From the NCBI GenBank assembly GCA_016839745.1, contig JAEOTS010000110.1, positions 1 to 64,000 of the forward strand: a stretch of 64,000 nucleotides of DNA, given 5' to 3'. The notes beneath the pieces are model-generated. The model was not told where the DNA came from, made no database searches, and worked only from the letters and a program-made list of their open reading frames with translations. Source of the stretch: Promethearchaeota archaeon. GTDB taxonomy: Archaea; Asgardarchaeota; Lokiarchaeia; Sigyniarchaeales; SOKP01. The translations under genes and the position numbers were made by a program. Each line of letters opens with the position of its first letter. Positions within the stretch are counted from its first letter, which is position 1. This document shows positions 4,485-7,551 of the stretch, one piece after another.

Positions 4485-6821
4485 TTAGGAGTTATTTTGG
4501 TATTTAAATCTACTTAGCTTATAAATTTCTTGAGCAATTTTCTTTCCAACATTTTCAACTTTTATTAATTCCCCAATATCAGCGTTAAAAATCTCTTGGA
4601 GCGAATTTAATTCTCTAAGTAAGTTTTTAGCTCTAAGAGCATTTATACCCGGAATACCTGCAACGATATATTCTAACAAACTTGAAATTTCTATTGGTTT
4701 TTTATCAAACCTTAATTTTAAATCCATTTTTGAATCCGTTTGCTCCTTTTTCGCAAGCTGATAAATAAACGTTGCAGATTCAGATGGATCTTTTGTTTTA
4801 TATACAGTAATTCCTAAATTCAGAATAATTGATGTGATCGCGCCGTAGAGTGCATTTTGGTTAATATTTGAATTTATAAAAGGGTCTCCTTCTAAAATTA
4901 ATATAGGTCTAACAAAATTGTTCTTTAACTCAAATAATTCGTTAAATAATCTCCCATCTTTGACCGAATCGTTAAAGTCTTGTGCTGATTTTCTTTCGAT
5001 CCCAACTCTTTCTGAGATGATATAGTCTGCAACAGTTAATTGTTTTAGTTCTAAACTAACTCCCATTAAGGACAATGCTCTGACAACAGCAGAGGCTGTT
5101 TCTCTGTTATCACAAATTATTGTGTAATCCTCAGCCCCCTTAATCTTCTGGATAAACGATAAATCTGAAGTTATTTTAAGATTGCTGGAATCCTTACTGG
5201 TTTCATCTTTTTTTACAAAATTTAAAAGGTTTGATTGTCCTGCTTTAGAACCTGAACCATGGTCTTTCATGGATTTTAAACTTTGATTCATAACCCGTTC
5301 CTTACCTTTTTCAGCCCAATAATATCTTTCATCACGAGTTCCTTCAGCCATTAATATGAAAACTTTTCCTTCCTTCTTTCTCCCGGTTCTTCCACGACGT
5401 TGAATAGAACGCACAGCACTTGGTACAATGTCGTAAAATATTACTAAATCACATTCCGCTATATCTAAACCTTCTTCTCCAACACTCGTAGCAATTAAAG
5501 TGTTATAAATTCCTTCCTTGAAATCTTCAAGTAGTTGTATTTGTTCTTTTTGAGTTAGACCTTTATCTAAAGATTTGGTGACTTGTCCTACGAATTTATG
5601 CGCCTTTATAACTTCGTCTCTTTCAACAAATTTAACTATATTGTTGACGGAGTCTCTAAAATGACAAAATACCAAAATTCTCGAGTCTCTATTTTGATTG
5701 ATCTGATTATGTAAAATTTGTGCTAATTTTTCTAGTTTAGGATGAACAATACCATTCTCTTTGTTAGTTTCAATTAATTTAAGAACGCGTTTTATGCCAG
5801 AATCTTGAAAAAGTTCTCTTAGTGATTTATTTGCAGTGTTTTGTTTTATTTTTTTAATGTTTTTTTTCATGTAATCATCTAATGCGCTTATTCCTTGAGT
5901 CTCAATAAGCTCATCCATATGGGAAAGCCTTATCGCATTTGCTACAAATTTTTTCGCACTAAATAGTAGTAACTTCTCCTCATCTTCTCTTGAGGCTGAG
6001 ATCTTCCCGTTAATTATTTTATCTAACGCAAGCAAATCTTTTCTAGTAACCTTAGTAACATCTGACGAATTTAATAATTCCTGTTGTTTTAACCATTTGT
6101 ATATTGTTCTTAATTTATCTGTCATTATTTTTTTAATATCCATAAATTCCCTTGGAAGCTTAACCTTTATCCATTCGTTATCAACTTTATAGATGTAAGG
6201 TTTTACGTCTGAATCTTGGTCTGTTCTAATTTCGACACGATCAACGAATAAATTTTCCTTTATTTCGTTAATCTTCCCTTCCGTAGATCCTGGACTTGCG
6301 GTAAGGCCTAAAATTTGGTGGTTCTTGGCGATTTCCATGTATTTCTTAGCAATAAAACAATACGCATAATCTCCTACACTCCGATGACATTCATCAAAAA
6401 TAACTAAAGATACATTCTCTAACGAATAAAGATTTGAAATTATATCATTTTGAAGTACTTGTGGTGTCATAAAAGCAATTTTTAAGTCCTTCCAAATATC
6501 TCTCCTTTTTTCCGGTGATGTAGTTCCAGTAATTGCTATTAAGTTTTCTTCAGGAATAACTGTTAAATCTAAAAAAGATTTATAATGTTGATTTACAAGA
6601 GGTTTGGTTGGAGCTAAGAAGATAATTTTAGAATTAGGCATTTCTGATAATCTGTGTATAGCTAACATTAAAGCTATAACTGTTTTTCCTAATCCCGTAG
6701 GAATAACTACTAAACAATTAGTATTAAGACAATTTATAAATATATTCTCTTGATACGCCCTTCTTAAAATAAAATTTTCCTTAAGTAAAGGGTGCGATAT
6801 AAATTGCTCCTTATTTGACAC
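4485..6821 (-). CDS. hef: Hef-type helicase-nuclease (SF2 helicase plus XPF nuclease)
   Basis: 778 residues in the full archaeal Hef order. The N-terminal SF2 helicase has Walker A PTGLGKT (41-47), DECH, LTASPG and the motif VI sequence QRRGRTGRK. It is followed by an XPF/MUS81 nuclease domain with the metal site ERKSAQDF preceded by CDNRE, and a C-terminal double helix-hairpin-helix (GIPGINALRAKNLL and VENVGKKIAQEI). Hef acts on stalled replication forks and branched DNA and is the archaeal relative of FANCM and XPF. All catalytic motifs look intact. The start is GTG at 6821. The gene is monocistronic. Confidence 0.95.
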   Translation of the reverse strand: MSNKEQFISHPLLKENFILRRAYQENIFINCLNTNCLVVIPTGLGKTVIALMLAIHRLSEMPNSKIIFLAPTKPLVNQHYKSFLDLTVIPEENLIAITGTTSPEKRRDIWKDLKIAFMTPQVLQNDIISNLYSLENVSLVIFDECHRSVGDYAYCFIAKKYMEIAKNHQILGLTASPGSTEGKINEIKENLFVDRVEIRTDQDSDVKPYIYKVDNEWIKVKLPREFMDIKKIMTDKLRTIYKWLKQQELLNSSDVTKVTRKDLLALDKIINGKISASREDEEKLLLFSAKKFVANAIRLSHMDELIETQGISALDDYMKKNIKKIKQNTANKSLRELFQDSGIKRVLKLIETNKENGIVHPKLEKLAQILHNQINQNRDSRILVFCHFRDSVNNIVKFVERDEVIKAHKFVGQVTKSLDKGLTQKEQIQLLEDFKEGIYNTLIATSVGEEGLDIAECDLVIFYDIVPSAVRSIQRRGRTGRKKEGKVFILMAEGTRDERYYWAEKGKERVMNQSLKSMKDHGSGSKAGQSNLLNFVKKDETSKDSSNLKITSDLSFIQKIKGAEDYTIICDNRETASAVVRALSLMGVSLELKQLTVADYIISERVGIERKSAQDFNDSVKDGRLFNELFELKNNFVRPILILEGDPFINSNINQNALYGAITSIILNLGITVYKTKDPSESATFIYQLAKKEQTDSKMDLKLRFDKKPIEISSLLEYIVAGIPGINALRAKNLLRELNSLQEIFNADIGELIKVENVGKKIAQEIYKLSRFKYQNNS

Positions 6822-6968
6822 GAAAATTACCAGAAAATATCAGATTATTATATCTTTTAAGAGAAAACTTTCTCAGATATGATTTAAAGTAACAGAGTCT
6901 ATAGAATCTCTTAAATTATATTAATACCTTTTTAATAATTATTGTTAGTGTTTATTTCACATCAAATA

Positions 6969-7136
6969 GCGCGAGTGGTTTAGACGTATAACGACACTTT
7001 CACGATAAAAAATTCGTGTAAAGCGTTAAACGCTCACACCGTGTAAATTTTCGCTAATTTAAAGCGATAATCTCGACGGTCGGGGGTTCAAAAGTTTGAA
7101 ATTTTCTTTCAAATTGAAAAATTCCCCCCTTGCGCA
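6969..7136 (+). tRNA. Intron-bearing tRNA, probably tRNA-Val(CAC)
   Basis: Acceptor arms GCGCGAG (6969-6975) and CTTGCGC (7129-7135) pair over seven positions with one G-U, followed by discriminator A (7136); CCA is not encoded. T8, G9 and the D-arm GTTTAG resemble archaeal tRNA-Val. Stem ACACT (6994-6998), loop TTCACGA and anticodon CAC (7001-7003) follow. CACGA (7001-7005) pairs with TCGTG (7014-7018), as in a bulge-helix-bulge for an intron after position 37, with AGCGT (7022-7026) as the 3' stem (four of five pairs). The T stem GGGGG (7082-7086)/CCCCC (7124-7128) encloses a loop that becomes TTCAAAT if about 30 bases (near 7093-7122) are removed. The stretch 7029-7078 implies another insertion near the variable loop, which I could not resolve. 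Position 18 is C instead of G. Confidence 0.55.
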
Positions 7137-7248: not shown

Positions 7249-7551
7249 ATGTCTTCTTTTTTAGAGTCTCGTGAATTAAGAAAGTTGTATAAAGAAGTTC
7301 GAAAAACCATCAAAATTGGTTCGATTTTCCTTACTAGATACGAAAAAGCTCGCATCACGGGAGCGCGTGCTCTACAGATAAGTTTTGGAGCACCAATTTT
7401 GATCGAAAAGCCTAAGAATGTTATTGATCCTATAAAGATAGCTTTATTAGAATTAAAATCTAAAATCTTACCATTAACAATAAGACGAGAGTACCCTAGT
7501 GGAGAACATCAAGATATTTCGATTAATAAATTAATTCTTAAAAAAGATTAA
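7249..7551 (+). CDS. rpoK: DNA-directed RNA polymerase subunit K (Rpo6)
   Basis: 100 residues, homologous to archaeal Rpo6 and eukaryotic Rpb6. The diagnostic core LTRYEKARITGARALQISFG is followed by DPIKIALLELKSKILPLTIRREYPSGE. This subunit clamps the RNA polymerase core and helps assemble it. An N-terminal extension of about 25 residues precedes the core. It lies about 110 bases after the tRNA, and its 3' end is 3 bases from that of the convergent winged-helix gene. Confidence 0.95.
   Translation: MSSFLESRELRKLYKEVRKTIKIGSIFLTRYEKARITGARALQISFGAPILIEKPKNVIDPIKIALLELKSKILPLTIRREYPSGEHQDISINKLILKKD

Follow-up and report, generated by a model that had tools for sequence, protein, structure and literature searches.

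A predicted tRNA-Val(CAC) gene with three small introns in a Lokiarchaeon, and the occurrence of T-loop introns in Asgard archaea

Does a 168-nt segment, in which the arms of a tRNA can be read between insertions, represent a working tRNA gene, and where exactly is it interrupted? This question is raised by a locus in the window, the stretch of 64,000 nucleotides of Lokiarchaeal DNA analyzed here. A seven-pair acceptor stem (GCGCGAG/CTTGCGC, including one G-T pair), a T stem of five G-C pairs (GGGGG/CCCCC) and a D arm are all present in the sequence, as a previous sequence-only reading of the window had reported. That reading placed one intron in the anticodon loop and another in the T loop, implied a third insertion near the variable loop, and considered that the tRNA could be degenerate. 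By comparison with homologous genes, we found that the segment is best described as a real tRNA-Val gene with the anticodon CAC and three small introns (Table 1).

The window is part of a draft genome of 3.53 Mb in 192 contigs and codes, according to Pfam, for actin, RpoK/Rpb6, and a Hef-like helicase-nuclease. The Hef protein has its nearest named relatives in Candidatus Lokiarchaeota metagenome-assembled genomes (79-89% identity). The tRNA locus sits in the gap between hef and rpoK. Upstream of the tRNA, at positions 6907-6940, lies an A+T-rich block, TTAAATTATATTAATACCTTTTTAATAATTA, which is strongly conserved in most homologues, including the intronless homologue, and which may be the promoter of the tRNA gene or of hef, the divergent gene.

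Table 1 Features of the predicted tRNA-Val(CAC) gene and its flanking genes (positions in the window)
Feature	Position	Strand	Remarks
tRNA-Val gene, anticodon CAC	6969-7136	+	Ends in discriminator A; 24 homologues with 0-3 introns
Exon 1: acceptor 5' strand, D arm, positions 26-28	6969-6995	+	Aligned to intronless L046 and L098
Intron 1	6996-7029	+	34 nt, position 28/29
Exon 2: anticodon arm up to position 44; anticodon CAC at 7035-7037	7030-7045	+	
Intron 2, variable loop	7046-7077	+	32 nt, position 44/45
Exon 3: GGTC, T-stem GGGGG, TTCAAA (54-59)	7078-7092	+	
Intron 3, T loop	7093-7122	+	30 nt, position 59/60
Exon 4: T60, T-stem 3' strand CCCCC, acceptor 3' strand CTTGCGC, discriminator A	7123-7136	+	
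Hef-like helicase with ERCC4 nuclease domain	4485-6821	-	Pfam; flanking gene, lineage anchor
RNA polymerase subunit RpoK/Rpb6	7249-7551	+	Pfam; flanking gene, synteny anchor

In raw scans of the window, neither ARAGORN nor Rfam reported any tRNA, and the interrupted gene was missed, as would be expected for a gene with three non-canonical introns. At relaxed thresholds, ARAGORN gave 388 matches in the window and was of no use. Permissive Rfam matches to U2, bxd_6, and SCARNA7 were far under the respective cut-offs and were rejected. When the three introns were removed in silico, ARAGORN called the resulting 72-nt product tRNA-Val(CAC). The anticodon stem of this product is ACACG/CGTGT, and a cloverleaf with acceptor, D, anticodon, and T arms was found both by ARAGORN in the spliced form and in the comparison of an intronless homologue with the Rfam tRNA model.

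We searched 58 related genomes with the 168-base gene. Full-length homologues with 74-96% identity were found in at least eight other genomes, and the alignments of shorter homologues broke exactly at the suspected insertions. Two homologues, L046 and L098, contain no intron and are 73 nt each. The L046 sequence, GCGCGAGTGGTTTAGTGGCTATAACGACACGCTCACACCGTGTAGGTCGGGGGTTCAAATCCCCCCTTGCGCA, scores 67.2 bits against the tRNA model (RF00005; E 8e-15), and it is followed by rpoK with the same gene start, indicating conserved synteny. The full-length homologues, together with this intronless syntenic gene that scores as a tRNA, argue that the gene in the window is not a chance resemblance.

The comparison set comprised 24 homologous genes with none, one, two, or three insertions. 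Besides the two intronless genes, we found intron 2 alone in L042 and L043, introns 1 and 2 in L034 and L040, introns 2 and 3 in L030-L033, L036, and L037, and all three introns in 12 genomes. Intron 1 is cleanly missing from the genes with intron 2 alone, with introns 2 and 3, and with no intron; intron 3 is missing from those with introns 1 and 2, with intron 2 alone, and with no intron; and intron 2, which occurs in 22 of the 24 genes and is more widespread than the other two, is missing only from L046 and L098. Each intron is thus cleanly present or absent at a fixed position, and the spliced products of all 24 genes were called tRNA-Val(CAC) by ARAGORN. L042 and L043 (genomes G010 and G004) have other exon bases and a reversed orientation to rpoK, and fall within a group of genomes that carry introns 2 and 3; possibly they are replacement copies and not strict orthologues. 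A rapidly built tree of a single short gene, EndA alpha, would allow one clade to have lost intron 1 and G019/G021 to have lost all three introns.

The intron boundaries were set by comparison with the homologues and may shift by a base or two where the flanks repeat. A bulge-helix-bulge (BHB) can be drawn at each junction, as the sequence-only reading had suggested for its anticodon-loop intron, and the motifs of introns 2 and 3 in the window gene are relaxed forms of it. At intron 1, the predicted motif is canonical, with a central helix of about 4 bp and opposite 3-nt bulges: exon AACG pairs with intron CGTT, the bulges are AC|A and AA|A, and the internal helix CTTTCACGA/TCGTGTAAAG directly adjoins them. 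The four central pairs are kept in 13 of 14 homologues, and the inner helix was weak or absent upon folding in L035. At intron 2, the central helix of the window gene joins exon CGTG to CTCG by three of four possible pairs, with one U-U mismatch, and the bulges are TA|A and AC|G. The same helix is perfect (CGTG/CACG, four of four pairs) in L036, L037, L039, and L041-L043. At intron 3, the central helix has four pairs (exon TTCA/TGAA) and the inner helix is GTTTGAAA/TTTCAAAT. The 5' bulge is AA|A, and the 3' bulge has 5 nt (AAAT|T) in the window gene and 3 nt in L039 and L041. Folding gave a weak or absent inner helix of intron 3 in L027-L029 and L038.

For the T loop, the sequence-only reading proves accurate. 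It had described the pairing of TTCAA with TTGAA and, between them, the hairpin TTTGAAA/TTTCAAA (7-8 bp), both of which are present in the sequence; its junctions, 7092/7123, are exact according to the homologues without intron 3; and the removal of the 30 nt restores a 7-base T loop, TTCAAAT. The insertion that it had implied near the variable loop is also real, and intron 2 lies ahead of the T stem. Its anticodon-loop intron, near 7004/7021, is not borne out. The supposed splice helix, CACGA (7001-7005) with TCGTG (7014-7018), does pair, and a CAC triplet follows TTT at 7001-7003; the pairing is nevertheless part of the internal helix of intron 1, outside the anticodon loop. In the window gene, the exon and the intron both end in AC, so that the boundary could be 28/29, 29/30, or 30/31, and the two latter positions fit this gene considered by itself. 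They conflict with L039 and L041 (GAC|TTATTAC...), in which the flanking repeat is broken and only 28/29, a position in the anticodon stem, is permitted. The genes without intron 1 join GAC straight to ACGCTCACACC, in agreement with the same boundary, and the anticodon loop CTCACAC is left uninterrupted. We therefore give next to no credence to an intron in the anticodon loop accompanied by a separate, unresolved insertion. It is only slightly more credible that there are two introns and that the remaining insertion is a long variable arm retained in a type II-like mature tRNA. Such an arm would be sought in intron 2, a hairpin-forming insertion of the variable loop that occurs in nearly all of the homologues, but in the two homologues without it the variable loop has the normal 5 nt (AGGTC), valine tRNAs belong to type I, and in several genomes the BHB central helix CGTG/CACG joins intron 2 to the exon.

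A further question is whether the gene has decayed. The D loop, AGACGTA (6982-6988), reads C and then a single G, in line with the C at position 18 on which the suspicion of degeneracy had been based. G18-G19 in the D loop is usual in tRNAs, and it is not strictly defining. A pseudo-tRNA that accumulated insertions and lost its D-loop identity elements could also be replaced by other valine tRNAs, since the genome contains those with the anticodons GAC and TAC, and TAC could in principle read GUG. Against this, the exons are nearly invariant over the 24 genes while the introns drift; in the three-intron genes, the exon identity is 93% compared with 61-64% for the introns. All of the 288 acceptor and T-stem pairs examined in the 24 genes are standard, and double changes that preserve pairing were found at acceptor pairs 2, 3, 6, and 7 and at T-stem pair 50. 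These three observations point to purifying selection on the tRNA rather than decay. A one-G D loop is shared by 13 genes, including the window gene, which form a subclade; being conserved, it looks like a tolerated variant. The other homologues keep GG. No second CAC gene was recognized in the genome by a search that is imperfect for interrupted genes. We consider a degenerate tRNA very unlikely, and the earlier suspicion can be set aside. Overall, we are highly confident that the locus is a functional, single-locus tRNA-Val(CAC) gene with BHB introns at 28/29, 44/45, and 59/60, which would be spliced by EndA and RtcB.

The genome contains two EndA paralogues (PF01974 genes). The alpha protein (L057/L117, G000:C86:38126-38725) has 200 amino acid residues, among them the catalytic Tyr, His, and Lys, and its match to the EndA of Aeropyrum pernix (3P1Z) has an E value of 1e-33. 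The alignment runs through the loop (YYGQPLDVEKPRG in the alpha protein, FFGSPVGISKPRL in A. pernix), and K58-P59-R60 is aligned to K44-P45-R46 of A. pernix. In the second paralogue (L058, G000:C93), the catalytic His is missing. Such a pair, one member catalytic and the other not, is the composition of an (alpha-beta)2 enzyme. An RtcB gene is also present. The Crenarchaea-specific loop is recognized by a lysine near the active site with Pro or Val and then a basic residue behind it; in A. pernix, the loop (K44, P45, R46) aids the cutting of relaxed motifs (PMC6379350, PMC12397907), and such motifs are cut efficiently only by (alpha-beta)2 and epsilon2 enzymes (PMC6379350); the predicted enzyme set therefore fits a substrate with relaxed motifs. 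The similarity to the (alpha-beta)2 enzyme of A. pernix (PDB 3P1Z/3AJV; PMC6379350, PMC12397907) thus covers the catalytic alpha subunit with its Tyr, His, and Lys, the non-catalytic paralogue, and the K-P-R loop. The difference is the Asgard host, for which those two papers do not describe the loop, known here from sequence. Among 50 EndA alpha loci in Asgard genomes, L145 was left out because it was in the wrong frame, and all of the other 49 have K-P at the loop position (31 KPR, 14 KPK, and 4 KPD). The K-P-D variant occurs in four genomes of one family.

From these components, the following pathway may be proposed. In the precursor, each intron would fold into an internal hairpin and pair with the adjacent exon in a short helix. 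An EndA of the (alpha-beta)2 type, a heteromer whose alpha subunit has a segment like the Crenarchaea-specific loop, would assemble and cut in the bulges, and RtcB would join the exons. The expressed and charged product would be a 72-nt tRNA that reads GUG.

Insertions are not restricted to the valine gene. By eye, about 19 of the 27 recognizable tRNA genes of the same genome contain one, and T-loop introns are seen in three unlinked genes, those for Val(CAC), Arg(GCG), and Arg(CCT). The T-loop introns of the two arginine genes (L021 and L097, respectively) are 30 nt long. The same genome assembly includes, on a 9.5-kb contig, a type II-shaped tRNA with a long variable arm, the anticodon GCA, and the T loop TGCAAAT (L009 1501-1581, G000:C107:2018-2098), which could be either a contaminant or an unusual tRNA-Cys. 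In the genus as a whole, T-loop introns were found in the tRNA genes for Asp, Thr, Lys, Trp, Gly, and other isotypes, and are nearly always about 30 nt. When a strict T-loop-intron pattern was applied to 196 Asgard genomes, 99 matched, compared with 4 for the reversed pattern as a control; the pattern demands exact bases, and 99 genomes is a lower bound. All of the 20 matches sampled from the wider phylum (L169-L188) lie within tRNA genes. The length of the T-loop introns in Asgard tRNA genes is about 28-33 nt. Predicted T-loop introns are thus common and widespread in Asgard tRNA genes, and the statement in the sequence-only reading that they are known mainly in Thermoproteales was too narrow. 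The T-loop intron of Val(CAC) resembles those of Arg(GCG) and Thr with p of about 0.002-0.014 per pair against shuffles, among 65 pairs and with hairpin symmetry uncontrolled. This gives hints of transposition of T-loop introns between tRNA genes, which we do not accept as shown.

The three-intron arrangement is already known from other archaea, and the Val(CAC) gene adds a further case. Both 59/60 introns and triple-intron tRNA genes have been described (PMC4090602, PMC3218864). The multi-intron tRNA genes of Thermoproteales resemble our gene in having three small BHB introns, including a T-loop intron, and a heteromeric EndA with broad specificity, which in our case is predicted (PMC4090602). 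They belong to another phylum and differ in positions and isotype: tRNA-Pro(UGG) of Pyrobaculum islandicum has introns at 25/26, 37/38, and 56/57 (PMC4090602), whereas Val(CAC) lacks the canonical 37/38 intron. The 59/60 introns and permuted tRNAs of Thermofilum and Cyanidioschyzon (PMC4090602, PMC3218864) share the T-loop position, whereas Val(CAC) has an ordinary 30-nt cis intron in an unpermuted gene. Closest in lineage are the very intron-rich tRNA sets of two other Asgard classes, Atabeyarchaeia and Freyarchaeia, in which, according to PMC11291895, most tRNA genes are interrupted, at non-canonical positions and with multiple introns in a gene; T-loop introns are not singled out in its main text. 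An incomplete search of the open-access literature yielded no paper that describes T-loop introns as characteristic of Asgard archaea in general, nor one that describes the Crenarchaea-specific loop motif in Asgard EndA.

The Val(CAC) gene is an intron-riddled tRNA gene of the sort that gene finders overlook, and as both ARAGORN and Rfam miss it, Lokiarchaeal tRNA sets are probably under-annotated. The occurrence of zero, one, two, and three introns in one gene among close relatives provides a natural series for the gain and loss of introns. A wider proposal, which we regard as speculative and rather doubtful, is that the 59/60 introns are a shared Asgard trait, either ancient or repeatedly transposed, that accompanies an (alpha-beta)2 EndA with a 'Crenarchaea-specific' loop general to Asgard archaea. 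If this is true, a broad-specificity endonuclease could have been present already in the archaeal parent of eukaryotes, and the analogous loop of eukaryotic TSEN might be inherited and not convergent. Of wider importance than the single gene, the recurring T-loop introns and the EndA loop of Asgard archaea offer a testable route to the tRNA splicing machinery of the relatives of eukaryotes.
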